A DNA stretch of 21,255 nt, taken from IMG/VR virus record IMGVR_UViG_3300020171_000142, positions 1 to 21,255 of that record; one strand, 5' to 3'. The notes under the pieces were generated by a model, which was given only the letters and a program-made list of their open reading frames with translations, searched no databases and had not been told where the DNA came from. Numbering within the stretch: position 1 is the stretch's first letter; every line of letters begins with the position of its first letter. This stretch comes from a virus. The position numbers and the translations under genes were made by a program. Below, piece after piece: positions 1 to 19,485 of this stretch.

Positions 1-129
1 GATTTTTAAAGGTATATTGAAATGTTCAGCCATATCCTTTAAATAGTTATGGCCATCATTATACCAGTGAAAACCAGCGTTGCGCTCGAACTGGTTTGAC
101 TCAAGATATGTTTTCTCAAAGTTATTCAT
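1..129 (-). CDS. Partial small phage protein, C-terminus off the left edge
   Basis: The reverse strand has an open frame from an ATG at 129 to the edge (43 codons seen), beginning MNNFEKTYLESNQFERNAG and continuing with an FHWYNDGHNYLKDMAEHF stretch. GGGGATC lies about 6 bases upstream of the start. The first 8 bases overlap the end of the upstream gene (122-307) as ATGAATAA, which suggests translational coupling. The pattern of a Gly followed by WYN.xxH and a leading E/R-rich segment reminds me of a short phage family (DUF7178-like) of unknown function. That resemblance is from memory and unverified. Only the N-terminal part is visible, so no function is offered. Confidence 0.6.
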   Translation of the reverse strand, partial: MNNFEKTYLESNQFERNAGFHWYNDGHNYLKDMAEHFNIPLKI

Positions 130-307
130 TTGATTGATCCCCACTTGAATTAAACAAGTTTGGATTTCTAATTAATTCACAGCAACTTTCCTCCCCATTC
201 CACGCCATACAATTATCACCTAAGCAAGACTGATAATGATAAGATTTAGTGCCATAAAATCTAAATGGGCAAACTTTTTCTCGAACTAATTCAGCTGTTG
301 TTTTCAT
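122..307 (-). CDS. Small cysteine-rich phage protein (61 aa)
   Basis: This 61-residue leftward gene has a clear ribosome site (AAGGGGGATC) 6-7 bases before its ATG. Five cysteines (residues 13, 28, 33, 42 and 43) fall in a CP(F)...C....C.AW....CC pattern. That pattern matches a widespread type of short phage protein with conserved CMAW and GYC-like motifs, probably metal-binding; the function is unknown. It is the first gene of the leftward transcript and its stop overlaps the start of the next gene. The C-terminal 15 residues are polar and look disordered. I am confident it is a gene and not confident about any role. Confidence 0.7.
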   Translation of the reverse strand: MKTTAELVREKVCPFRFYGTKSYHYQSCLGDNCMAWNGEESCCELIRNPNLFNSSGDQSNE

Positions 308-590
308 TTTCTTGATCCCCCTTTGAACCTTATTAATGCAAACGATATGCCATAAATAAATAAATCTTTCAAATATAAATCATAACGAATTCAATAGGTT
401 AAATACTATTCAATTTCATAAGAAATGGTTAGTATGCAAACTTTATATAGCTATTCAACAATGGTCAGTTAACCAATTGAATATATTCAAGAAATACCTA
501 TGACATTTATTTTACAATGTGACATAAAATGTCTAAAAGGTGATATATGAAATAGAATTTTAATAATATGGACAAAGTATCCGAATAAAA
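308..590. other. AT-rich non-coding segment left of the repeat array
   Basis: This segment is strongly A+T rich and holds no gene with a ribosome site on either strand. It separates the leftward genes from the DnaA-box-like array at 594-637. It must contain the promoter for the leftward genes, but I could not pick a convincing -35/-10 pair. Such a stretch beside DnaA-like boxes is also what a DNA-unwinding element looks like; that is inference. Confidence 0.45.
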
Positions 591-593
591 TCC

Positions 594-637
594 TGTGGAA
601 ACCTTATGGATAACCCGTGGAAAACCTGTGGATAACT
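594..637. repeat. Four tandem 11-bp DnaA-box-like repeats (candidate iterons)
   Basis: Four contiguous 11-bp units read TGTGGAAACCT, TATGGATAACC, CGTGGAAAACC and TGTGGATAACT. The last contains TGTGGATAA, the exact complement of the consensus DnaA box TTATCCACA. The second differs from it by one base, and the first and third by two each. The 11-bp period places every copy on the same face of the helix. The array sits between leftward and rightward operons next to AT-rich DNA. It could be an origin, a DnaA-responsive regulatory site or a binding array for a phage protein. Confidence 0.7.
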
Positions 638-688
638 CAAGGATGGGGTAAAATGCTACACTCTGGGATGTAATCCCCTTAAGTAAAC

Positions 689-730
689 AATCCATACAAT
701 TCCTATGGGAATGGTGGGAATTGATGGATT
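689..730. promoter_or_regulatory. Long inverted repeat in the control region
   Basis: AATCCATACAATTCC (689-703) pairs with GGAATTGATGGATT (717-730), giving 14 base pairs with one bulged base and a 13-nt loop. There is no T-tract on either side that would make it a clean terminator. It could be a dyad operator or an RNA hairpin in a leftward transcript. Confidence 0.4.
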
Positions 731-760
731 ACTATATAAAATCCAATAGCGGGCACCTCC

Positions 761-776
761 AGGTATGGCCATACCT
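761..776. promoter_or_regulatory. Perfect 16-bp palindrome, candidate operator
   Basis: AGGTATGGCCATACCT is a perfect 16-bp palindrome with half-site AGGTATGG. The same core, GGTATG, recurs nearby at 828-836 (as CATACC), 856-861 and within the promoter spacer around 905-910. Perfect dyads of this length beside a phage promoter usually bind dimeric repressors. No repressor gene is visible in the window. Confidence 0.5.
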
Positions 777-827
777 ATAAGGACCGGCGCCACGGTTAAC
801 CCATCATAATAAATCAATATAACAGTC

Positions 828-861
828 CATACCTTAGCCTGTTTACATTTCATAAGGTATG
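828..861. promoter_or_regulatory. Inverted pair of GGTATG half-sites upstream of the promoter
   Basis: CATACCTTA (828-836) and TAAGGTATG (853-861) are exact reverse complements separated by 16 bases, about 28 bases upstream of the -35 box. They share the GGTATG core with the palindrome at 761-776. The arrangement fits either a regulator site with spaced half-sites or an upstream hairpin. Confidence 0.4.
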
Positions 862-888
862 AAATTGAATTAATCTGAAGGATATTAC

Positions 889-916
889 TTGACATTCCCC
901 TGTGGTATGGTATGAT
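889..916 (+). promoter_or_regulatory. Sigma70-type promoter for the rightward operon
   Basis: A consensus -35 (TTGACA, 889-894) is followed after 16 bases by TATGAT (911-916). TGG directly upstream of the -10 gives an extended -10 signature. Transcription would start near 922-924, exactly at the foot of the first leader hairpin. This is the clearest promoter in the window and should drive the genes from 1098 onward. GGTATG occurs twice at its -10 end, so a regulator binding that core could control it. Confidence 0.75.
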
Positions 917-922
917 GTTTAA

Positions 923-1097
923 GACCGGTGGAGCAGTCATGGGCCCCCCGGTCCAAGAGTAAGCCCGACCCCTAAGATATCTCTCCATCACACCGTGCGT
1001 CCATTACCTCGGGGGCCGGGGGCAGTCCCTGGAAAGATTCGGATCTGCATAAAAGGGTGGTACCAAATAATTTTTTTAAAAATCTAAGGAGGAAAAC
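923..1097 (+). promoter_or_regulatory. GC-rich structured 5' leader of the rightward transcript
   Basis: About 175 nt separate the promoter from the first start codon, in a genome where gaps are usually under 60 nt. GACCGG (923-928) pairs with CCGGTC (948-953) across a 19-nt loop. CCGGGGG (1016-1022) pairs with TCCCTGG (1026-1032) around a 3-nt loop. AGAT-tcgg-ATCT (1036-1047) is another mini-hairpin. It is much richer in GC than its flanks. I could not match it to a known riboswitch or ribozyme. It could be an antitermination or stability element. Confidence 0.4.
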
Positions 1098-1295
1098 ATG
1101 AAAAATCTAGGTTTAGTAGAGGAAGTAAACGAGAAGTTCTTGGAGGCTATTTTAGATTCAGAAAACCCGACAGCGTTGGACATCCTCACATCTGCATATC
1201 TCAACTTTGCTCACGCCGCGGAGGTTATGCAGGATGTAATCTTGGGTGATGAGGATGAATGGGATGAGGACGAATTGGACGAGGAAGACCTATAA
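1098..1295 (+). CDS. Small acidic protein of unknown function (65 aa)
   Basis: This is the first gene of the rightward operon, with a perfect AAGGAGG site 6 bases before the ATG. Its N-terminal 45 residues are predicted helical, with no recognised domain. The last 16 residues are an almost pure Asp/Glu tail (GDEDEWDEDELDEEDL), giving a very acidic protein. Acidic first-operon phage proteins are sometimes DNA mimics or inhibitors of host proteins, but nothing here shows that. Function unknown. Confidence 0.75.
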   Translation: MKNLGLVEEVNEKFLEAILDSENPTALDILTSAYLNFAHAAEVMQDVILGDEDEWDEDELDEEDL

Positions 1296-1355
1296 ACTGA
1301 AGATCGGGTTGCACGGGGGGTTGATGGTCAGACATCACCATAACGGGAGGACATT

Positions 1356-3704: not shown

Positions 3705-4367
3705 ATGAATAATACAAAAAGGAATCCACAGATATTCCCATTGGGTCGCTCTGCTCCAGTGGTGCCCGATCCTGTTATTCCCCTTGAGCCAGAAATTGTA
3801 GATGATAATCAGATAGATACTGACGTTACCGAATCCAAGAAATGTGGACAGTATTTTCCTAAACAGGAAACCGACCAGAATCGTGAAATGTATGAATACT
3901 ACGAAAGTCTTGGTCGTAGTCGAACACTTTATAAGGTATCAGAGCGCTTTAGTAAGTCATCTTCCACCATCGCTCTACTTTCACGTCAATACGGATGGAA
4001 GGATCGTGCAAGGGTTGCCGATGGTTTTGGCGATCCCGTAAGGGAAAAATCCAGGGAACCCGTTGACGATGCCCGTCTCAAACTCGTAAAGGTCGTGAAT
4101 GAGGTTGCAGATACCCTATACGAGATAATGTTTATCGCGAAGGCATGTAAGGCCGGAAAAATGACCACGATATTCGAAGAGAAACTGGAGCGACTCCAGA
4201 GGTCTCTTAAATTGTGGGGCTTTGATTGGAAAAGCCCTAGCGCATTTAAGGCGCTCGTTGAGACGATGAAACAAGTTATGGATTTTAATATTGAGGCGAA
4301 GGGTAAGGTTCCTGCGAGGGCTACGCAGATAAATGCGGAGAAATTTGAACTTCATATCTCGGATTAA
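3705..4367 (+). CDS. terS: Terminase small subunit (220 aa)
   Basis: The ATG lies 6 bases after the previous stop, with AAGGGTG as ribosome site. Residues 1-55 are Pro/acid-rich and look unstructured. Residues about 65-100 (YYESLGRSRTLYKVSERFSK, then a YGWKDRAR end) form the helix-turn-helix plus WxxR signature of small terminases, which recognise the packaging start on phage DNA. The following helices (about 120-200) fit the oligomerisation region. It lies 2.4 kb upstream of TerL, separated by a block of small accessory genes and an inserted HNH gene, instead of directly adjacent as in many phages. Confidence 0.8.
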   Translation: MNNTKRNPQIFPLGRSAPVVPDPVIPLEPEIVDDNQIDTDVTESKKCGQYFPKQETDQNREMYEYYESLGRSRTLYKVSERFSKSSSTIALLSRQYGWKDRARVADGFGDPVREKSREPVDDARLKLVKVVNEVADTLYEIMFIAKACKAGKMTTIFEEKLERLQRSLKLWGFDWKSPSAFKALVETMKQVMDFNIEAKGKVPARATQINAEKFELHISD

Positions 4368-4792: not shown

Positions 4793-5062
4793 ATGCCATT
4801 CCGAGTTGATTTTTCAGATCTAGGGGAGACGCTTCGAGAACTCATCGAACAGGCGAGCAATCCTCCGTGGTCGCTTACCATTACAAGAATCGATAACGGA
4901 TACATGCTGCATGGATCTGATTATGATTCCGTTATTGAGGATGTGGAAAGTGATCCCCTGAGGTCTGGGGAAGAACTTTTGTGGAATGTAATGGATTATT
5001 TTGACCTGCGTGGGTCGAAACATGATCCAGAACGACTCAGGGTTGTAAGGGAAAAATCATAG
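4793..5062 (+). CDS. Conserved small phage protein (89 aa)
   Basis: CAGGGGGAGA lies directly upstream of the ATG. The product has a strand-rich SLTITRIDNGYMLHG segment followed by an acidic linker. It ends in a helix with an LLWNVMDYFDLRGSKHDPER tail. Small phage proteins with this NGY.l.g...E.l...v..yF...gskhd..r layout are common near terminase genes; their role is unknown. No cysteines or membrane segments. Confidence 0.65.
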   Translation: MPFRVDFSDLGETLRELIEQASNPPWSLTITRIDNGYMLHGSDYDSVIEDVESDPLRSGEELLWNVMDYFDLRGSKHDPERLRVVREKS

Positions 5063-5132
5063 ACTTTATAGTTAAAACCATAGATTTTATAGTTTATAAT
5101 CAATTAATTTGTAGTTTAAACTCAATTAATTT
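5060..5132 (+). promoter_or_regulatory. AT-rich repeats with possible internal promoter
   Basis: TAGACTTTATAGTTA (5060-5074) is repeated with changes as TAGATTTTATAGTTTA (5081-5096). CAATTAATTT occurs at 5101-5110 and 5123-5132. The repeats are spaced 21-22 bp apart, about two helical turns. TTAAAA (5072-5077), 17 bases, then TATAAT (5095-5100) could form a promoter with a perfect -10 and a weak -35. The stretch sits in a short non-coding gap before two tiny genes. Confidence 0.4.
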
Positions 5133-5146
5133 AACGGGGTGAAACA

Positions 5147-6212: not shown

Positions 6213-6794
6213 ATGGCGAGAAAATTCGTAACGGTGCAATGTAAGCTGTGCGGTAAGGATACTCAAAAACCGCCAAGTCTGGTTAAATGGCGTAAGAATT
6301 TATTTTGTAGTAAACTATGCGATGGTAAATATCATAGGATCGACCCAAATAGAACGCATAGGGTTTGCTCGACCTGTGGCATAAATAAACCAAGATCGGA
6401 ATACAGTTTTAGGCAAGGAAGTCCTGATGGATTAAATCATTATTGTAGATCATGTCATAATAAGCGTAGCCTTGATTATAGAAATAAAAATACAGAGGTA
6501 CTTAAAGATCGTCAAAGGACATTGTATGGAAATAATAAACACACCTTTAAGGCAAAACGTATTAAGCAGAGATACGGAATTACCATGGAGCAGGTAGAAA
6601 ACCTACGTGATCAACAGGGTGGACTATGCGCAATTTGCAAATTAGAACCCGCATCCCATATAGATCATGATCATGTGACGGACAGGGTTCGTGGATTATT
6701 ATGTAACAACTGTAATACTGGTCTTGGAATGTTTCAAGATAATGCTTCGCTCATGGCCGCTGGTATAAAGTACTTGGAGGACAACCGTGATTAG
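6213..6794 (+). CDS. Endonuclease VII-type HNH endonuclease (193 aa)
   Basis: A GGGGAGGGGAG site precedes the ATG. The C-terminal domain (about residues 115-190) has the recombination endonuclease VII layout. Zinc pairs C139/C142 and C164/C167 flank H149-I-D-H-D-H, and GLLCNNCNTGLGMF follows. The N-terminus adds zinc pairs (C10/C13 with C32/C36, then C52/C55 and C78/C81). T4 gp49 of this family cuts branched DNA, but free-standing phage copies with extra DNA-binding fingers usually act as homing-type mobile nucleases. It ends 8 bp inside TerL and carries TerL's ribosome site. Confidence 0.8.
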   Translation: MARKFVTVQCKLCGKDTQKPPSLVKWRKNLFCSKLCDGKYHRIDPNRTHRVCSTCGINKPRSEYSFRQGSPDGLNHYCRSCHNKRSLDYRNKNTEVLKDRQRTLYGNNKHTFKAKRIKQRYGITMEQVENLRDQQGGLCAICKLEPASHIDHDHVTDRVRGLLCNNCNTGLGMFQDNASLMAAGIKYLEDNRD

Positions 6795-8298
6795 GGAATA
6801 TTCCTTCGCGACTGTGCCCACCATCAAGCGATTCTGTAGTGACGATGCATTTATTACGGGAGTTCTAGGCCCATTTGGTTCCGGAAAATCTGTTGGCTGT
6901 ATAATGAAAATTATACAACGTGCGCAAAGGCAAGCTCCAGGGCCAGACGGTGTGCGAAGGTCCCGATGGGGAATTATAAGATCGAGTTATCCTCAACTTC
7001 GTGATACAACAATTCCTACAGCCCTGGACTGGATTGAGGGGCTTGGGAGTTATCAGAAAACGGAATATGACTTCCTTTTAAATAAACTATCTTATGATGG
7101 TCATCCAATCGAAGCGACGCTTCATTTCCGGGCCCTAGATAGGCCGAGGGATATTCGTAACCTTTTATCCTTGGAGCTCACGGGTGCATTCTTCAATGAA
7201 ATCAAGGAAATACCTAAGCGTATAGTTGATGTCATGCGTGGCCGTGTCGGAAGATATCCATCGAAAGCAAAGGGTGGCTGCACTTGGTCAGGAATTATAT
7301 TTGACAGTAATCCTCCCGATACGGATCATTGGCTTTACAAGCTATTAGAGGTTGACAAACCAAGATATTGTTCTACATGTAAAGATGCCCAGGGCGGTAT
7401 CATCCTATTTGTCGAAGGTCAATGCCCAAGATGCAAAGACAACATCGGTCTTCCATTCGTCAGTCTCTACAGACAGCCAAGTGGCCGAGGGCCTAATGCA
7501 GAGAATCTTCCTAATCTAGAGGTTGGTTATTACGCGCGCTTAGCCGCGGGCATGGACAAAGACTTCATCCGCGTTTACGTAGATGGCGAATACGGATATG
7601 TTTCGGATGGTAAAGCCGTCTACCAGATCTTTGATGAACATAAACACGTTGCAAGAGAGAAACTTAAAGCGGTTACTGACTATCCGCTTATTATAGCATT
7701 TGATAATACAGGCCGCGATCAGGCCGCGGTTATTTGCCAGTATCTTCCTATTGGGCAGTTGCGGGTTCTACATGAATTTGTAATGACGGATACTGGAACC
7801 AGAACCTTGGTTCGTGAGATAGTGAAACCATTTATTGTTTCAAACTACCCGGGGGCCAAGTTAATCCTAACGGGTGACCCCGCTGGGGTAAGGCCGAGTG
7901 ACACAGATGAACGTAACACATTTGAAGAAATTAGCGAAGCGTTTGGCATTAGCGCTTTCCCTGCACGCTCAAACACTCTCGGGGCTCGCCTCGGGGCTGT
8001 TGAGAGCCTGATGAAGCGTTTCCTTGGGGGAGATAAGTTTGGGCTCCTCGTGTCCCCTACCTGTGGTATCCTCATTAAAGGATTCCGTGGTGAATATCGT
8101 ATGCGCCGACTTCAGGTGGTTGGGCAGGAACGATATACTGATAAGCCTGAGAAGAATCTTGTCAGCCATGCGCACGATGCGCTCCAGTATGCAGCGCTTG
8201 CCGTAGAGGATTCATTGGTATTAACCTCCGAAGGTTCCCTAGATTGGGGATCTGGAAACGTGGTTCTAACACCATCAACATGGATTGCATTTACTTAA
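6787..8298 (+). CDS. terL: Terminase large subunit (503 aa)
   Basis: The GTG start at 6787 lies behind TTGGAGG. This is the ATP-driven motor that packages DNA into the procapsid and cuts it. Walker A is GPFGSGKS (residues 28-35). A GAFFNE segment ending in E138 fits Walker B and the catalytic glutamate. The RNase H-like nuclease has D306 (FDNTGRD), D364 (LTGDPAG) and D464 (HAHDALQY). Between the domains sits a zinc ribbon: CSTC (195, 198) and CPRC (213, 216). That ribbon is not part of the basic fold. Length is normal. It lies directly upstream of the portal gene. Confidence 0.95.
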   Translation: MIREYSFATVPTIKRFCSDDAFITGVLGPFGSGKSVGCIMKIIQRAQRQAPGPDGVRRSRWGIIRSSYPQLRDTTIPTALDWIEGLGSYQKTEYDFLLNKLSYDGHPIEATLHFRALDRPRDIRNLLSLELTGAFFNEIKEIPKRIVDVMRGRVGRYPSKAKGGCTWSGIIFDSNPPDTDHWLYKLLEVDKPRYCSTCKDAQGGIILFVEGQCPRCKDNIGLPFVSLYRQPSGRGPNAENLPNLEVGYYARLAAGMDKDFIRVYVDGEYGYVSDGKAVYQIFDEHKHVAREKLKAVTDYPLIIAFDNTGRDQAAVICQYLPIGQLRVLHEFVMTDTGTRTLVREIVKPFIVSNYPGAKLILTGDPAGVRPSDTDERNTFEEISEAFGISAFPARSNTLGARLGAVESLMKRFLGGDKFGLLVSPTCGILIKGFRGEYRMRRLQVVGQERYTDKPEKNLVSHAHDALQYAALAVEDSLVLTSEGSLDWGSGNVVLTPSTWIAFT

Positions 8299-8311
8299 GG
8301 GGTGTTTGCTT

Positions 8312-10411
8312 ATGGTTATGATCAGAACGAATGATGAAATCGAACAGGCTGAACGTGCTGTCATTAACACAGACCTTGAGGCTGAAAAAGCTGCATCTCC
8401 GGATGCTGGGGCCATGACGGGTCTTATTGCCAACTTGCGTCGAAGGTGGGAAGCTGCCGTCCTTGCTAAAAGAAATAGTGGTGTCGAGGATCAGTTCTTT
8501 AAAAACCTTAACATGATAAATAAGATCTACGACAACGCTCGCAGGGCAGCCATTAAGGAAATGAATGGTAGTGATACCTACCTGGGAGTTGTAGAAACGA
8601 AGGTACGCCATGGTAAGGCTTGGGTTAGGGATGCCTTGTTTCCTCCCGGGAAGAAACCGTATGGCGTAAAGCCAACCCCATCCCCAGACCTTCCGCAAGA
8701 TATTATACAGCAAGAAACGCAGAGGTTTGTGTCGGAAACACTTCAGGTGATTCAGCAGCAATCGGCAGCCGCTGGCGTGCAGGTCGATATGGGCATGGCA
8801 GTTCAGGAAATTCAGAATAGCTTTCCAGAACTTCAGAGGCGAGTCAAGAACGAACTTCGCAAAATCTCCTGGGAAAAATGTCAGGACATGGAAAAAGAGG
8901 TTGATGACCAACTAATTGAGGGTGAGTGGTACGACGCTCTCGATCGATGTGTTCCTGATATTATAGCACTTGGCACTGGTATAATGCTTGGTCCGTTTAA
9001 GAGAAAACGCAAGCTATTAGTGGCAAGTCAATCTGGCGCAGAAGTACAAGATAAACTGGTTAAGGGTTTTGAGCGGGTATCTCCATTTAATGTCTATCCA
9101 CAGGCTGATTCTAGCGGACCAGACGATGGACATGTATTCGTTAAACTCCCTTATCGAAAACTTGATCTTCAGGATTTAATTGGGGCTCCAGGGTTCGACA
9201 ATATCGAGGCTGTTCTCGCAGAAGCTGGTTCTGGTAAGTTACGCGAATGGACATTGATCGAAACCGAAAGGGCGATGCGGGAAAAGAAGTCTACGGAGAG
9301 CGTATACGATACTGACATAATTGATTGTCTGCTTTATATGGGTTCACTGTCTGGAGAAGAATTACGTGAGGCTGGTATTGAGATTCCCGAGAAAAAGAAA
9401 TACTTTGACTTTCTCTGTAATGTTTGGTTTATTGGCAACCATGTAATCCGAGCTATGATCAACGAAGATCCATTCGGTAAACAACCAATATCGATCGCAC
9501 ACTTTGATGAAAACAACGATGGATGGTGGGGTAAGGGATTGCCGGAAACAATTGAATCGGACTCCCATGTTATCAATGCTTGCGCCCGTGCGACAGTCAA
9601 TAACGTAGCGATGGGATCTGGCCCCCAGGTCGAAATCAATGCAGATCGCCTTAAGGGTGGCGATAAGGGCGATACCCGACTCATGCCATGGAAAAGGTGG
9701 ATCACTAATTCCAAGGGTATGCAAACGGGTCCAGCAATTACATTCTGGCAGCCTGCCATGCACGCGCAAGAAATATTATATGTGTTGAATGATTTTAAAA
9801 AGGGTGCAGACGAGAGATGTGGGATCCCCGGATTTGCCCATGGAGATCCACAGGTTGGGGGCGGAGGCAACACGGCATCAGGGCTTAGTATGTTGATGAG
9901 CCAGGCCGCCCGGGGCATCCGCGGAATCATCAAAAACATTGACAAGAACATGATTTCACGTTCGGTTGGATTTGTTTATAACGAGCTTGCACTGGATCCT
10001 AAATACCAAGAGTTTATTGGAGACGTTCAACTCATCGCCATGGGATCTCAAATCCTTGTCGAAAAGGAACAGCGAGCCGTTAGAATGCTTGAACTTCTCA
10101 ACGCCACAAACAACCCGAACGACCTTGCCCTGATGGGTGCAGAAGGTCGGGGTTACTTACTTGGTGAGGTGGCGCGCACGTATGAGATTGATCCGGAGAG
10201 GGCGTTACCGATGCTCGAACTTTTTAAAGGAAAACCTATAGGTCAGCCCGTACCGGAACAAGCTGGTACCCCAACTCCTGGACCAGGTGCTGGTGGACGT
10301 GGTACTCCGCCATTAGCTCGTAGAAATTTAGATGTAGCAGGAAATGAAGTACAGGGCCAGGAGTCTCAACTTTTCGGAGGCCGCGGAGGTCCATCGGAAT
10401 TACCTAAATAA
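8312..10411 (+). CDS. Portal protein (699 aa)
   Basis: The ATG at 8312 has AAGGGG 9 bases upstream and starts 13 bases after TerL. Portal rings of 12 subunits form the DNA entry vertex and bind TerL. Evidence is the position between TerL and scaffold/capsid, the length, and motifs of long podovirus-type portals: FERVSPFNVYPQADSSGPDD (about 253-272), GWWGKGLPETIESDSHVINA (404-423) and a helix-rich GNTASGLSMLMSQAARGIRG crown segment. The last about 60 residues are Gly/Pro-rich (TPTPGPGAGGRGTPP) and probably flexible. The family level is from memory; the portal call itself is strong. Confidence 0.85.
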   Translation: MVMIRTNDEIEQAERAVINTDLEAEKAASPDAGAMTGLIANLRRRWEAAVLAKRNSGVEDQFFKNLNMINKIYDNARRAAIKEMNGSDTYLGVVETKVRHGKAWVRDALFPPGKKPYGVKPTPSPDLPQDIIQQETQRFVSETLQVIQQQSAAAGVQVDMGMAVQEIQNSFPELQRRVKNELRKISWEKCQDMEKEVDDQLIEGEWYDALDRCVPDIIALGTGIMLGPFKRKRKLLVASQSGAEVQDKLVKGFERVSPFNVYPQADSSGPDDGHVFVKLPYRKLDLQDLIGAPGFDNIEAVLAEAGSGKLREWTLIETERAMREKKSTESVYDTDIIDCLLYMGSLSGEELREAGIEIPEKKKYFDFLCNVWFIGNHVIRAMINEDPFGKQPISIAHFDENNDGWWGKGLPETIESDSHVINACARATVNNVAMGSGPQVEINADRLKGGDKGDTRLMPWKRWITNSKGMQTGPAITFWQPAMHAQEILYVLNDFKKGADERCGIPGFAHGDPQVGGGGNTASGLSMLMSQAARGIRGIIKNIDKNMISRSVGFVYNELALDPKYQEFIGDVQLIAMGSQILVEKEQRAVRMLELLNATNNPNDLALMGAEGRGYLLGEVARTYEIDPERALPMLELFKGKPIGQPVPEQAGTPTPGPGAGGRGTPPLARRNLDVAGNEVQGQESQLFGGRGGPSELPK

Positions 10412-10429: not shown

Positions 10430-10960
10430 ATGGGTAGAAATAAGGAAAAAAGAAGAGAATGGGTATTACAATATAATTTAAAGAACAAAGAACACCGCAA
10501 GGAATACAACAAAGAATACAGTATAAAATATAGGCAAGAACATAAGGAGCGTATCGCAGCGCAGCATAAATTATACTACGAGAAGAATAAAGAGCAAATC
10601 CTAGCATCCGAAAAAAAGAGTAGACAAAAGAACATAGAACACTACAGGGAATTTCGAAGGCAATATCATCAAAAGAACAAGGCAAGGCGAAACCTAAATA
10701 TAAAGAAATGTAACCTTAAGAGAAAATATAATCTTACCCCTGAAGAAGTGGATGCAATGCTGTCTGGGCAAAGCTTCTCATGTTTAATTTGTCATGGAGA
10801 TTTACGGATACTCAAGAGACATATCGATCATAATCACAAAACGGGAAAAGTCAGGGGAATTCTTTGCAGTAATTGTAATAAGGGCATTGGAATGTTGGGC
10901 GAAAATACTGAAACCCTGTCTAGGGCAATTAGTTATTTACAACGGGAGGATAAAATATGA
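10430..10960 (+). CDS. Second endonuclease VII-type HNH endonuclease (176 aa)
   Basis: GGGGAGGATGC precedes the ATG. The catalytic domain has zinc pairs C118/C121 and C146/C149 around H131-I-D-H-N-H and then GILCSNCNKGIGM, the same family as the gene at 6213. The N-terminal 95 residues differ: a very basic, tyrosine-rich helix with repeated Y..KNKE-type segments (LYYEKNKEQI, QYHQKNKARR), typical of DNA-contacting arms in phage HNH proteins. It is inserted between portal and capsid genes and overlaps the next gene by ATGA. It is AT-rich compared with the portal gene, consistent with separate acquisition. Confidence 0.8.
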   Translation: MGRNKEKRREWVLQYNLKNKEHRKEYNKEYSIKYRQEHKERIAAQHKLYYEKNKEQILASEKKSRQKNIEHYREFRRQYHQKNKARRNLNIKKCNLKRKYNLTPEEVDAMLSGQSFSCLICHGDLRILKRHIDHNHKTGKVRGILCSNCNKGIGMLGENTETLSRAISYLQREDKI

Positions 10961-12418: not shown

Positions 12419-12484
12419 ATGACTTATCCTTATGCCAGTGGCCACCCGGACTACAGTTCGACTGGCTCAAGCAAGTTTATCCCT
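12419..12484 (+). CDS. Major capsid protein, exon 1 (22 codons)
   Basis: AAGGAGG lies 8 bases before the ATG. The 22 codons give MTYPYASGHPDYSSTGSSKF then IP, matching the N-terminal arm of capsid proteins that read (N)PxYSSTGxSxFIPEI... in relatives. The frame then meets TAA at 12485-12487, so unspliced RNA makes only a 22-residue peptide. The stop lies at the start of a group I intron: exon bases 12478-12485 pair with the guide GGGGGATA (12494-12501). Exon 2 starts near 13764. The splice site is placed after T12484 (U:G wobble); T12485 is the alternative. Confidence 0.8.
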
Positions 12485-13763
12485 TAATAAGCTGGGGGAT
12501 AGTATTTCCAGTCAATGCAGCTATGGGCTGGGAAAACAATCGTTAGATATCATTTGACGATTTTAAACCAATTCTAAAAAACTGGAAAGCAATTGCTAAC
12601 CAGATTGAAGTGTCGAGAAAGAGAGGAAACAGGCAATGCCAAAGCTCTCTGACAAATATATAGCTGGTTTTTTAGACGCGGATGGCAGTATTAGCCTTGG
12701 GTTTTATGGAAACAATAGAACCCCGCAGCTAAAAGTTGGCTTTAGCCAGCGAACAGACAGGGATGAAGTCCTATATAGAATTCAAGAAGTAACGGGCGGA
12801 ACTATAGATAATGTTCAAATTAAGGGTGGTTCTTACACCAGGTTAAACATTTTCGCAAAGGTTGCTGTCCATGGGTTACTGAACAGAATTCTAAAATATC
12901 TAGTCATCAAGCGTCATTACGCTGGGGTTGCATTAGAGATATCAAAGCAAAAGGCTTTTGATGTCGAAGCAACGAAATTTTTGTTAAAACAGCAACGACG
13001 AATTAAATCACTTCCAATTCCAAACTTTCCATCACGGAAGTGGATGGCTGGATATATAGATGGTGATGGATGTTTTTCCACCACAAAGATTCGCCAAGAT
13101 GGTGCGGTATCTATCTATTTTAAACTGTGTTCATCAGATTATGATAGTGAGGGTATCGAGTTAATCCAAAAGGCATTTGGTGGAAATATCTATCCTGCGC
13201 GGAGTTGTAAGAATCCAGTTATTCAATATACCTTACTGCTTCCCCCATCTAAGGCGATACAGTTTATTGCTCACTTTGGAAAATACTGTATCATTAAGAA
13301 AAAACAGACAGATTTCATCCTAGAGTGCGCTCGAATCGGACATTACCGAAATGGTAAATGGATTAAAGAGCATTTATCTGCACTCAAAGGCACACAAGCA
13401 CAGACTGAACGAATTGGCGATCACAATGTGATCGATGCGACAGTCGAATCAAGTAATGAAAATTGCTTGACGGAAATGGTATAACTCAACAGTTTTAACA
13501 AGTATCACCAACCGGGATTAATAACATAGTCCCATATCTCAGTAATGAGATATTAAAAACCCGGAGAATTGCTGGAAGCCTGAAACGGTAATCAGCAGCC
13601 GAGCCCATCGATAGGTGGGAAGGTTCAGAGACTAACCGACAATCGCTAAAGATTGTTGGACACGAGCACCGGGCACCCTTCTTGGGTGATGATATAGTCC
13701 GGCCTTGCGAGAACTTACAATCGCAAGAAGTTAAGGATAAAGAGCCTTAACGATAACAAAGCG
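12485..13763 (+). ncRNA. Group I intron (IA-like) in the capsid gene
   Basis: All core helices can be drawn. P1: 12478-12485 with 12494-12501. P3: CCCGG 13560-13564 with CCGGG 13669-13673. P4: TGCTG 13570-13574 with CAGCA 13593-13597. P6: CCCA/TGGG. P7: GACTA in the R element GTTCAGAGACTA (13623-13634) with TAGTC in ATATAGTCC (S). P7.1: 13636-13644 with 13651-13659, an IA feature. P8: CACCC/GGGTG 13674-13688. P9: CTTGCGA/TCGCAAG. P9.1: GTTAAGG/CCTTAAC. The LAGLIDADG gene lies between P2 and P3. The 3' end is set at G13763 (possible P9.0, GC with GC); G13752 or G13761 would also keep the frame. Confidence 0.85.
12636..13484 (+). CDS. Intron-encoded LAGLIDADG homing endonuclease (282 aa)
   Basis: The ATG follows AGAGAGGAAA inside the intron. 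Two LAGLIDADG motifs are visible: YIAGFLDADGS (residues 8-18, active-site D16) and WMAGYIDGDGC (136-146, D144). It is therefore a monomeric, two-domain enzyme of the usual length. Such enzymes cut the intronless allele at the insertion site so that repair copies the intron; some also help splicing as maturases. The gene is intact, with no frameshift, so the intron may still be mobile. The expected target is the capsid exon junction, i.e. sequence around 12470-12484 joined to sequence from about 13764. Confidence 0.9.
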   Translation: MPKLSDKYIAGFLDADGSISLGFYGNNRTPQLKVGFSQRTDRDEVLYRIQEVTGGTIDNVQIKGGSYTRLNIFAKVAVHGLLNRILKYLVIKRHYAGVALEISKQKAFDVEATKFLLKQQRRIKSLPIPNFPSRKWMAGYIDGDGCFSTTKIRQDGAVSIYFKLCSSDYDSEGIELIQKAFGGNIYPARSCKNPVIQYTLLLPPSKAIQFIAHFGKYCIIKKKQTDFILECARIGHYRNGKWIKEHLSALKGTQAQTERIGDHNVIDATVESSNENCLTEMV

Positions 13764-14552
13764 TATGAAGGTGAGATAAAAAAGCAGGGTGACACCGTTA
13801 TCCTAAGATCCGTAGCCGACGTGTCGGTTGAGGATCACAACATCGGTGATACCTTCAGTTACGAAAGACCCACCTCTACACCGGTCACCATGCTTATCGA
13901 CAAAGGTAAGAGATGGAAGATCGCCCTTGATGATGTTGTCAAGGTCCAGTCTGATATTCCTCTTTTAAATAAGTGGACAGACGATGCTGCTATGCAGATG
14001 AAGATTTCGATCGAGAGGAGTTATTTCACCTCTTCCGAAATTACTGCTGGTATGCACGCTTCAAACGCTGGCCTAACGGCTGGTGTCGCTTCTGCAAGTT
14101 TTAACATCGGAACCACAGGCGCTCCCGTTCAGATTACGGCTGCTAACGTTCTTGATTATATCGTTGATTGCGGTACGATCTTGGATGAGCAGAATGTTCC
14201 CGAGCAGGGCCGGTGGATGGTCATCCCCGTTTGGATGGCTGGGCTTATCAAAAAGTCAGATTTAAAAGATGCCTCACTAACCAATGATGACAAGTCGATT
14301 TTGAGAACTGGCAGAATTGGTGGGATCGATCGCTTCGTGCTTTATTCCAGCAACCTCCTGAGTTCTTCTGGAACATCTTGGTACAGGGTGCCCTTCGGCG
14401 TGAATGCCGCGGTGACCTTTGCTACACAGATTGTTCATACGGAGAGCATGAGGAATCCGTTTGCGTTTGAGGATCTCGTAAGGGGTCTTCAGGTTTACGG
14501 GTACAAGGTTGTGAAGCCCGAGGGTTATGGGCACATGGTGTGCTATAAATAA
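13764..14552 (+). CDS. Major capsid protein, exon 2
   Basis: From the chosen splice point the frame reads YEGEIKKQGDTVILRSVADV, a hallmark of HK97-fold capsid proteins of the (N)xDYEGEI..QGDxVxIR type. Other family matches are LLIDKGKRWKIALDDVVKVQ, AAMQMKISIERS, NVLDYIVDCGTILDEQNVPE, GRWMVIPVWMAGLIKKSDLK and LVRGLQVYGYKVVKPEG. Translation can also be opened at a GTG at 13821, but no ribosome site is there, so expression should depend on splicing. The spliced product is about 284 residues, shorter than the about 300-340 I recall for relatives. The gene ends before a strong hairpin. Confidence 0.85.
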   Translation, partial: YEGEIKKQGDTVILRSVADVSVEDHNIGDTFSYERPTSTPVTMLIDKGKRWKIALDDVVKVQSDIPLLNKWTDDAAMQMKISIERSYFTSSEITAGMHASNAGLTAGVASASFNIGTTGAPVQITAANVLDYIVDCGTILDEQNVPEQGRWMVIPVWMAGLIKKSDLKDASLTNDDKSILRTGRIGGIDRFVLYSSNLLSSSGTSWYRVPFGVNAAVTFATQIVHTESMRNPFAFEDLVRGLQVYGYKVVKPEGYGHMVCYK

Positions 14553-14558
14553 TTAACA

Positions 14559-14601
14559 GGGTGTTCATTAAAACGCTACAACATATTTTTAATGAACACC
14601 C
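14559..14601 (+). terminator. 15-bp perfect hairpin after the capsid gene
   Basis: GGGTGTTCATTAAAA (14559-14573) pairs perfectly with TTTTAATGAACACCC (14587-14601) around a 13-nt loop, 6 bases after the capsid stop. The downstream sequence is only moderately T-rich (CCACTTTATT), so it may be a partial terminator or a 3' end that protects the abundant capsid mRNA. Confidence 0.6.
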
Positions 14602-14628
14602 CACTTTATTATACATGGAGGTTTTAAC

Positions 14629-15111
14629 ATGACTCTTCAAGATTTTGCACCGGGAAGTCTTTCTCTACCTATGGATGGTAGTAGAAAGCATTTTATCATC
14701 AAAAATACTATCGATTGTTACCGTTCGGTGGCAAATGGTGGTTTTGGAACATGGACAAGTGGAGACACCGCTCGCCTTTTGGAACTCAAAGAAGGGTGGG
14801 AGGTCAGAAACGTTTGGATTCGAGTTGTTCAGCTTGGTACATTAGCCGCCGCCCTCGATAAGATCGGGGATTCCGTTACGAATGATACATGCTATATGGC
14901 CGGAGACTGCAAGATTGGCAGTGCAGGTACCATTGGCATGGTGTATCGTGGCTTAGTGACTGATACTAATCAGGCATTGGGTGGGTATACCATGTTGGAA
15001 GATGGCTACCTTCTCGGTACGCTAAAGACGGCTAACTTCGACGGTATCTTTGAGATCGCCGCAGAAGTGGTTGATGTGTTCGGTGGTAATACGATTATTG
15101 CTGGAACATAA
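14629..15111 (+). CDS. Putative virion structural protein (160 aa)
   Basis: TGGAGG lies 7 bases before the ATG. The product is beta-rich, Gly/Thr-rich and has no signal peptide or membrane segment, as expected of a head-decoration or head-completion protein encoded directly after the capsid gene. The middle reads GWEVRNVWIRVVQLGTLAAA and the end is VFGGNTIIAGT. It is framed by two hairpins (14559-14601 and 15121-15153), so it may be a separately dosed transcript unit. I do not recognise the family. Confidence 0.6.
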   Translation: MTLQDFAPGSLSLPMDGSRKHFIIKNTIDCYRSVANGGFGTWTSGDTARLLELKEGWEVRNVWIRVVQLGTLAAALDKIGDSVTNDTCYMAGDCKIGSAGTIGMVYRGLVTDTNQALGGYTMLEDGYLLGTLKTANFDGIFEIAAEVVDVFGGNTIIAGT

Positions 15112-15120
15112 GTCCTTAAC

Positions 15121-15451: not shown

Positions 15452-15501
15452 TAATTAATTTTGGGGATGGGCAACCCGTAAATTGCTTGATGAGGTCCAT
15501 C

Positions 15502-16983
15502 ATGGGCGCAAGAGAAAGATTAAGTGTGGGAGAAGCCAAATTTAAGGGAACTAGAACTTACGTTGGCTCAAATCTATATGTTGTTTATATGCGAGATGCT
15601 GCTGGTAATATTATGTATGCCACCACAGCTATTGCAGATCCTACGGCTGAGACTGGTGCCGGTTTTGCCAAGGGTGCCTTAATTGTTAAGACCGATGCTG
15701 TTACGGGAACTAAGGGCACTTACGAAAACCAGGGAGTTACCACAGCCGCAGTTATGAATAAAATTGGTGATGTTACCTCTGCTGAAATCGGAGCTGCCGC
15801 AGTTACGTCTGCCTCTTTATCTGCAAATTCAATTATTGCCGCTAAGGTAAAGGCCGCCGCAGTCACTTCGGCGGGATTATCTGCTAATTCGGTGATTGCC
15901 ACTAAGGTAAAAGCCAGCGCAGTTACTTCTGCTGGTCTCTCAGCCCTGAGCGTTACGGCTGGGAAAATTAAGGGTGCCTTTACTTCAGCAAATCTATCAG
16001 CCAATTCAGTGATTGCTGGGAAAATTAAGGCAAATGCAGTTACATCTGCAACCTTATCTGCAAATAGCGTAACGGCTGGAAAGATTAAAGATGCCGTGAC
16101 ATCTGCAAACTTATCAGCCAATTCAGTTATCGCCTCTAAAATCAAAGCTAGTGCCGTTACATCTGCTGGGTTATCTGCACTCAGCGTCACTGCGGGGAAA
16201 ATTAAAAGTGCCCTAACCTCAGCTAACTTATCGGCAAGTTCAGTTATCTCAAGTAAAATTAAAGCAAGTGCCGTAACTTCTGCTGGTCTATCAGCCAATT
16301 CGATAATTGCAGCTAAGGTTAAGGCGAGTGCGGTAACTTCAGCCGGTTTATCGGCAAATTCTATCATTGCCGGTAAAGTTAAAGCGGCTGCTGTTACGTC
16401 AGCCGGATTATCAGCCAATTCAGTAATCGCTTCAAAAATTAAAGCGGCTGCCGTTACATCAGCGGGGCTGTCCGCAAACTCTGTTGTCGCGAGTACAATA
16501 AAGGCAGTTGCCGTAACCTCCGCTGGGCTTTCAGCAAATTCAGTTGTATCTGGAAAGATTAAGGCTGCAAACCTTACGTCGGCTGGATTGTCAGCATCTT
16601 CTGTTGTTACAGCAAAAATTAAAGATGGTAATGTAACATCTGCAAAAAGGGCTGTTTTAACAAAAACAACCGAGGCAACCGATGCTAGCATTACGGTTTC
16701 AGCCGCTACACTACTTGAGGGATATTTAGTTAAGACAGGTTTAACCGGACCACAAAATGTTACTACGGATACCGGTGCAAATATACAGGCCGCCTTCAAC
16801 GCAACCGTTGGAGCCTATTTTGATTGGGTATTCGCTAATAATAGTGGTCAAACGGCAACTTTAATTGGTGGCGTCAACGTGACACTACTTGGTAATGGGG
16901 CCATACCCAATACCGATAATATGCTTGTTCGTTTCATTAATACTGGTGCCGATACTTTAGATGCGGTTATTATGAGCAATTAA
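15502..16983 (+). CDS. Head- or tail-fibre protein with decapeptide-repeat shaft (493 aa)
   Basis: ATG 15502 is chosen because GATGAGG lies 6 bases upstream; a TTG at 15487 is in frame but poorer. Residues 1-90 are a domain paralogous to the protein at 15176 (GFAKGALIVKTDAVTGTKGT). Residues about 98-383 are 14 tandem units of 19-20 residues built from two decapeptides, VTSAGLSANS and VIASKIKAxA. Similar TSAKIA-type repeats form rigid trimeric beta-structured shafts in phage fibres. Residues about 385-493 form a compact beta-rich head, probably the receptor-binding or trimerising tip. It ends just before the strongest terminator in the window. Confidence 0.7.
   Translation: MGARERLSVGEAKFKGTRTYVGSNLYVVYMRDAAGNIMYATTAIADPTAETGAGFAKGALIVKTDAVTGTKGTYENQGVTTAAVMNKIGDVTSAEIGAAAVTSASLSANSIIAAKVKAAAVTSAGLSANSVIATKVKASAVTSAGLSALSVTAGKIKGAFTSANLSANSVIAGKIKANAVTSATLSANSVTAGKIKDAVTSANLSANSVIASKIKASAVTSAGLSALSVTAGKIKSALTSANLSASSVISSKIKASAVTSAGLSANSIIAAKVKASAVTSAGLSANSIIAGKVKAAAVTSAGLSANSVIASKIKAAAVTSAGLSANSVVASTIKAVAVTSAGLSANSVVSGKIKAANLTSAGLSASSVVTAKIKDGNVTSAKRAVLTKTTEATDASITVSAATLLEGYLVKTGLTGPQNVTTDTGANIQAAFNATVGAYFDWVFANNSGQTATLIGGVNVTLLGNGAIPNTDNMLVRFINTGADTLDAVIMSN
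15793..16650 (+). repeat. 57/60-bp coding tandem repeat, 14 units
   Basis: Fourteen in-frame units encode x-VTSAxLSxxSV-x-x-x-K(I/V)K-x. Units 3, 5 and 7 are 57 bp (they carry SVTAGKIK and lose one residue) and alternate with 60-bp units, giving a 117-bp higher-order repeat in the first half. The second half is uniform 60-bp units. Third codon positions have diverged, so protein sequence is conserved more than DNA. The array is old or under purifying selection. Confidence 0.85.
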
Positions 16984-18898: not shown

Positions 18899-19057
18899 AT
18901 GCGTTTGACGATTTGGTTAAAGGGAAACAAGACAACACTTTACATAGGTGGAGATCCGGAAAAGAATCAGGCACCGGTTGTTACGGCGGAGTTGACAGAT
19001 CCGCAGATTTTGATCGAGCCTGACCGATACAGAATAGACATAAAGGAGACGAAGTGA
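18899..19057 (+). CDS. Hypothetical small protein (52 aa)
   Basis: GGGAGGATAT precedes ATG 18899, and the frame gives 52 codons to TGA at 19057. It begins MRLTIWLKGNKTTLYIGGDP and ends LIEPDRYRIDIKETK, a two- or three-strand beta pattern. GTGA overlap with the endonuclease gene follows. No family recognised; it is most likely a small virion-associated or assembly protein judging by its place between fibre-type genes. Confidence 0.5.
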   Translation: MRLTIWLKGNKTTLYIGGDPEKNQAPVVTAELTDPQILIEPDRYRIDIKETK

Positions 19058-19485
19058 AGGAAAGTTTATATGAGACCATCCTGGCTTATACTGCGGGTAT
19101 CTTGGATGGAGAAGGAAGTATTATGCTCCCTCGTCTGCATAAAAAAATTACATATCTGAGAGTTGCCATTTCCAATACGGATTTCAATTTAATAAAATTT
19201 TTATTAAACAATTTTGGTGGAAGTTTTGTAGAATATCATCACAAGAATCCTAATTGGAAAAGACAATACTGCTGGGTTGTAGCTTCTAAGCAGGCATTGA
19301 ATTTTTTATCGTCGATTAGACCTTATTTGATTTTAAAAAGCCAGCAAGCCGATATAGCTATTGAATTTCAACTTAGAAAGAGATCCAGAGGACAATACCA
19401 GACTAAAGAAGAGAAATTATTGGACGCTACAGATGTTGGCATGATGCATAAGTTAAACAAAAGAGGAAAAATAGTAACCATTTAA
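19054..19485 (+). CDS. Free-standing single-motif LAGLIDADG endonuclease (143 aa)
   Basis: GTG start overlapping the previous stop (GTGA), with AAAGGAGA upstream. One LAGLIDADG motif (AYTAGILDGEGSI, residues 11-23, active-site E20) means it would work as a homodimer. Length is normal for that class. No group I core elements surround it, and the flanking genes look whole, so it is an intergenic mobile gene. It is AT-rich relative to its neighbours. Compare the two-motif enzyme at 12636: the motifs differ, so this is not a recent copy. Confidence 0.85.
   Translation: MKESLYETILAYTAGILDGEGSIMLPRLHKKITYLRVAISNTDFNLIKFLLNNFGGSFVEYHHKNPNWKRQYCWVVASKQALNFLSSIRPYLILKSQQADIAIEFQLRKRSRGQYQTKEEKLLDATDVGMMHKLNKRGKIVTI

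Follow-up and report, generated by a model that had tools for sequence, protein, structure and literature searches.

Tandem DnaA-box-like units in the longest non-coding gap of a tailed-phage genome fragment: a putative docking array for host DnaA

Four DnaA-box-like units of 11 bp stand in tandem in the longest part of the window that contains no credible gene (308-1097, 790 bp, free of ORFs). By the window we mean the whole 21,255-nt stretch analysed here, a piece of 21.3 kb from the genome of a tailed phage (Table 1). This array probably binds host DnaA, and quite possibly, though we would not go as far as to call it probable, it forms part of a phage replication origin at which an oligomer of host DnaA would dock, which is the single reading that we favour. 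It belongs to an already known kind of element, the phage DnaA-box array; what could be new is an apparent exchange of arrays at one and the same slot in related phages.

Sequence, geometry and surroundings of the array

The four units start at positions 594 (TGTGGAAACCT), 605 (TATGGATAACC), 616 (CGTGGAAAACC) and 627 (TGTGGATAACT) and, when read on the minus strand, yield four direct boxes of the same orientation within 44 bp, each with 0 to 2 mismatches. An earlier sequence-only reading had described four head-to-tail 11-bp units at this place, one with an exact and one with a single-mismatch box on the minus strand; its coordinates proved correct and both boxes were located. The common motif TGGA(A/T)AAC that it assigned to all units holds for units 2-4, but not for unit 1, which reads TGGAAACC.

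Single DnaA boxes are unremarkable in a window of 21 kb (1 to 5 matches vs 2.2 to 6.3 expected). Their clustering exceeds chance: the summed mismatches of the four 9-mers to TGTGGAWAA amount to 3, whereas 300 dinucleotide shuffles applied to the whole window gave 11 at best, with a mean of 13.4. Self-identity of the array at period 11 is 23/33 (shuffle maximum, 22), and when the gap was shuffled 300 times, the TRF score of the array was never reached. TRF favours a 22-bp unit repeated 1.9 times (score 63) over the 11-bp unit (score 46). The array offers both the direct boxes at 2-bp spacing (period 11) looked for in an oriC-type origin and the direct repeats of ~17-22 bp looked for in iterons.

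The gap divides minus-strand genes on its left from a plus-strand operon on its right, which bears out the earlier description of a longest non-coding region adjoining AT-rich DNA between opposite operons. A 62-aa minus-strand ORF (507-695) spans the array; as the sister phage has not retained this sequence, we took the gap as non-coding. Within the window, AT content is highest in DNA that flanks the array 5' of its TGTGGATAA units and that is, on composition only, a candidate unwinding element. In E. coli oriC, too, the unwinding element is located 5' of the TGTGGATAA boxes. Inspection of the candidate element by eye revealed no clear run of DnaA-trios.

Table 1. Coordinates of the array, of its surroundings and of the hallmark phage genes in the window
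Feature	Position	Strand	Remarks
Most AT-rich stretch of the window, candidate unwinding element	296-608		100-bp windows of ≤26% GC; composition only
Left conserved non-coding block, upstream of minus-strand operon	305-511		80% identity to G001 51575-51781
Segment holding the array, unconserved relative to the sister phage	512-767		flanks ~80% identical
Palindrome-like TGACATAAAATGTC, possible phage-regulator site	520-533		counterpart TGACAAAATGTC in G002 at 34998; sequence only
Tandem array of four 11-bp DnaA-box-like units (9-bp box + 2-bp spacer)	594-637	-	boxes 5'-TTATCCACA-3'
One-mismatch DnaA box TTATCCATA	605-613	-	
Exact consensus DnaA box TTATCCACA	627-635	-	
Right conserved non-coding block, promoter and leader of plus-strand operon	768-1027		80% identity to G001 52021-52280
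Sigma-70-like promoter TTGACA-16-TATGAT with TG extension	889-916	+	11/12 matches; conserved in G001 and G002
Small terminase	3705-4367		
Large terminase	6787-8298		
Portal	8285-10411		
Major capsid protein	13821-14552		

The promoter and the GC-rich leader that follows it (889-1080) are highly conserved, and the sister phage repeats part of this stretch ahead of an extra small gene (L029 4694-4850 and 5065-5130). A structured RNA in the conserved leader (918-1097) was considered and rejected, its stability being no greater than that of shuffles, and an Rfam search of window positions 1-1300 returned no match. Tandem repeats of 21-22 bp make up the intergenic stretch 5053-5133, one more of the window's few places of very high AT content.

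Similar arrays are widespread in phages

The degenerate triple TGGAWAAYYNR(x3) is present in at least 119 viral contigs, as against a single contig for the reversed control pattern, and carriers of 11-bp arrays include T5-like, T7-like, Arthrobacter and Microviridae phages. A search with a 33-base consensus matched 90 of 50,697 phage records, a count that includes many near-identical T5-like records, and 2 of 72,556 plasmid records (both at E 0.05) from a non-random sample of plasmids; at similar sensitivity, no E. coli genome was matched (E 0.5 in 28 Gb). Among the matches listed, 15 of 72 non-redundant arrays fall within ORFs of at least 100 aa, where 51 would be expected. When three exact boxes were allowed free spacing in viral contigs, the preferred distances were 11 bp (86 cases), 12 bp (76) and 21-23 bp (75), which is what cooperative DnaA binding would favour.

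Like the window, the T7-like phiEap-1, the Arthrobacter phage BillyTP, Siara and gokushoviruses carry arrays of the unit TGTGGATAAC(C/T) in non-coding DNA; unlike it, they have them close to genome ends or within small ssDNA genomes, and the boxes of phiEap-1 are ~22 bp apart. Several replication initiator families are found among the genes adjacent to such arrays (phrog_942 in 4 members, phrog_391 in 3, others in 2), and none among the 25 commonest families of control genes from the same loci. Adjacency to terminase genes was discarded as an array-specific trait, as control genes at the same loci match terminase families equally often. With some members located in terminal repeats or close to the ends of genomes and others next to initiator genes, the class as a whole may not have a single function.

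A possible origin of phage replication

We infer DnaA binding, strand opening and origin activity from the array, its statistical significance, its geometry, its AT-rich flank, its recurrence in phages and the absence of recognisable polymerase, DnaB or DnaA genes from close relatives. With their 2-bp spacers, the four direct boxes face almost the same side of the helix; ATP-DnaA would bind them there and would build a head-to-tail oligomer directed at the AT-rich DNA to the left; most likely this oligomer would open the AT-rich DNA and load the host helicase, and the gap would serve as the phage replication origin, or as one among several. In Thermotoga maritima, cooperative DnaA complexes reach their maximum on direct boxes separated by 2 bp (PMC10316083). 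The array resembles bacterial origins (the left array of E. coli oriC, boxes 3-5 of T. maritima) in its direct 9-bp boxes, 2-bp spacers and AT-rich neighbour (PMC10316083, PMC4285127), and differs from them in belonging to a phage genome outside any dnaA/dnaN neighbourhood, in having only a candidate unwinding element and putative initiation, and in packing four boxes of one orientation into 44 bp.

Domains of DnaB, PolA, PolB, PolIII-alpha and DnaA were found neither in the window nor in its relatives G001, L002 and G002, all of them incomplete records, and since these relatives have no recognisable DnaB, DNA polymerase or DnaA, such phages probably use the host replisome. G001 does encode a DnaG-type zinc-ribbon protein, a Sak4-like recombinase, an ERCC4 nuclease and an integrase.

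GC skew had been proposed earlier as a check on an origin. The turn is indeed present at this site, as a local minimum of the cumulative skew in G001 and a global one in G002, but it does not discriminate: throughout both contigs and on both sides of the gap, plus-oriented gene blocks have positive and minus-oriented blocks negative skew. Because its sign tracks gene orientation, skew was ruled out as evidence for an origin. Beside the gap, the amplitude of the skew in G001 and G002 (about 0.23-0.25) is approximately double that of most other gene blocks (about 0.1).

Several other points count against an origin. The array is missing from the closest phages, viral arrays as a group display no one-sided AT bias, so that a general AT-rich polarity had to be rejected, and some known phage arrays occupy terminal repeats and not proven origins. 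Moreover, a plain origin role fails to explain the preference for phages, because plasmids, which often initiate with DnaA, are nearly devoid of the array. Of the earlier suggestion of a compact replication origin or DnaA-responsive switch, then, the DnaA-box identity is well supported, given the sequence, the 2-bp spacers, the recurrence of the same period across phages and an AT-rich side as in E. coli oriC, while the role as origin or switch is still conjecture.

Possible DnaA binding for other purposes

Host DnaA might also bind the array for a purpose other than initiation, be it titration that stops host initiation, a DnaA-responsive early transcription or a DNA-protein block near the physical genome end, of the kind proposed for the T5 injection stop signal; we regard this as rather unlikely, yet as the strongest competitor of an origin. 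The enrichment of the arrays in phages over plasmids and E. coli speaks for it, and so does their position: among the matches listed, 14 of 30 non-redundant whole contigs have the array within 500 bp of a contig end, where 4.4 would be expected. The arrays of the T5-like Kenya-K36 and of Siara are within the DTR, that of phiEap-1 is at base 144, that of BillyTP 78 bp from the right end and that of Vibrio phage BD1 74 bp from an end. Contig ends may, however, be assembly artefacts, the window is a fragment with unmapped ends, and the contigs of G001 and G002 continue through the site.

The T5 injection stop signal has been described as containing DnaA boxes (PMC13250531), and the gap resembles the terminal repeat with this signal in Kenya-K36 in being non-coding, with direct TGTGGATAA boxes at ~12-bp spacing accompanied by other repeats (PMC13250531). 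In T5, by contrast, the boxes are paired within a terminal repeat of ~8.6 kb, whereas the window holds four in one block. Of the DnaA boxes and the inverted repeats or palindromes characteristic of the T5 signal, the window has the array and a single short palindrome only. As for transcription, the nearest strong promoter is too distant from the array for simple repression.

If many unrelated phages indeed carry tuned DnaA docking arrays without counterparts in plasmids or a host chromosome, host DnaA would be a common phage target, and whether such an array starts phage replication, stops host replication or holds incoming DNA becomes testable with an element of 44 bp.

Different arrays in the same slot of related phages

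Two related phages were available for comparison, G001 (55 kb, continued by L002 through an identical overlap of 127 bases) and G002 (64 kb); a search with the flanking DUF7178 gene recovered only these two, and deposited phages included no nucleotide relatives of the window. Conservation in relatives, which the sequence-only reading had also named as a check, failed: the array is absent from both phages, and other helical tandem arrays are there instead. In the syntenic gap of G001, TRF detected a 20-bp array (AAATGTCGAAAGCTCGACAA x2.5, 51844-51893), and in that of G002 a 10/20-bp array (ACTCTTCACC x5.3, 35167-35220), each of which outscores 300 of 300 shuffles. The conserved TTGACA promoter begins 253 bp past the array in the window, and the corresponding distances in the two relatives are 248 and 122 bp; with the repeats themselves differing, position is therefore kept while sequence changes.

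The three arrays may be variants of a single element. More tentatively, and with some doubt, related phages might keep a dedicated intergenic slot between early and late genes for a helically phased protein-binding array and swap the array itself (DnaA boxes vs other 10/20-bp repeats), thereby changing the initiator or host protein in control; the DnaA-box version would then belong to the widespread, phage-enriched class of host-DnaA docking arrays. Such a swap among sister phages would offer a natural series for testing changes of initiator dependence.

The same observations bear on the reading of the array as iterons or operators of a phage-encoded initiator or repressor, in which case the likeness to DnaA boxes would be coincidental and protein and array would change together between relatives. 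The arrays in the syntenic gaps of G001 and G002, the better score of the window array as 22 bp x1.9 and the array-promoter distances all agree with it, and the integrase of G001, together with a similar protein in G002, makes a repressor-operator region plausible. In iteron-type origins such as those of P1 and RK2, direct repeats of roughly two helical turns adjoin AT-rich DNA, in some cases together with DnaA boxes. The window array shares with them direct repeats of about two helical turns adjoining AT-rich DNA; unlike in P1 and RK2, however, neither a Rep-type initiator gene nor any other initiator or repressor family was recognised among the scanned window genes (the plus-strand genes and the 61-aa minus-strand ORF beside the array). 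Moreover, its units fit the DnaA consensus far beyond chance and recur in unrelated phages, which is hard to reconcile with a private phage protein, and we consider this explanation unlikely. A functionless chance tandem duplication, to which the lack of conservation in the two closest phages might point, is highly improbable, as its level was never attained by shuffles and the pattern recurs across phages.

Distant relatives and other features of the window

Annotated relatives identified by their terminase had neither the array nor mapped ends in the stretches read. In the distant relative L009, whose terminase is 40% identical, an extended non-coding region that also carries tandem repeats of 12 bp and 6 bp contains three exact DnaA boxes (367-419 and 1068-1076), two of which are inverted. 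Another, L020, possesses in a gap at 14307-15114 a pair of DnaA boxes at 12-bp spacing, one of them mismatched, just upstream of a TTGACA motif, and in the same gap a 10-bp tandem array (TTCATACGCA x3.3). A search of a genome collection with the terminase gave a sole match (L277, JAGWGN010000009.1; 41%) on a contig assigned by binning to a Micrarchaeota archaeon, which may reflect a binning error or a provirus; this being the only, distant match to a MAG contig so labelled, it was not used to assign a host by prophage search.

The major capsid gene of the window is split into an N-terminal part at 12419-12565 and a remainder at 13755-14549, between which lie a LAGLIDADG endonuclease ORF (12636-13484) and a group I intron (RF00028, 13509-13721, 82 bits); the capsid gene of G002 is unbroken. 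Three more homing-endonuclease-like genes are scattered among the structural genes (6213-6794, 10430-10960 and 19054-19485), two of the endonuclease VII/HNH type and one weakly LAGLIDADG-like. Finally, the structural protein encoded at 15487-16983 contains many degenerate repeats of ~20 residues, visible as a 60-bp period in the DNA at 15817-16463.
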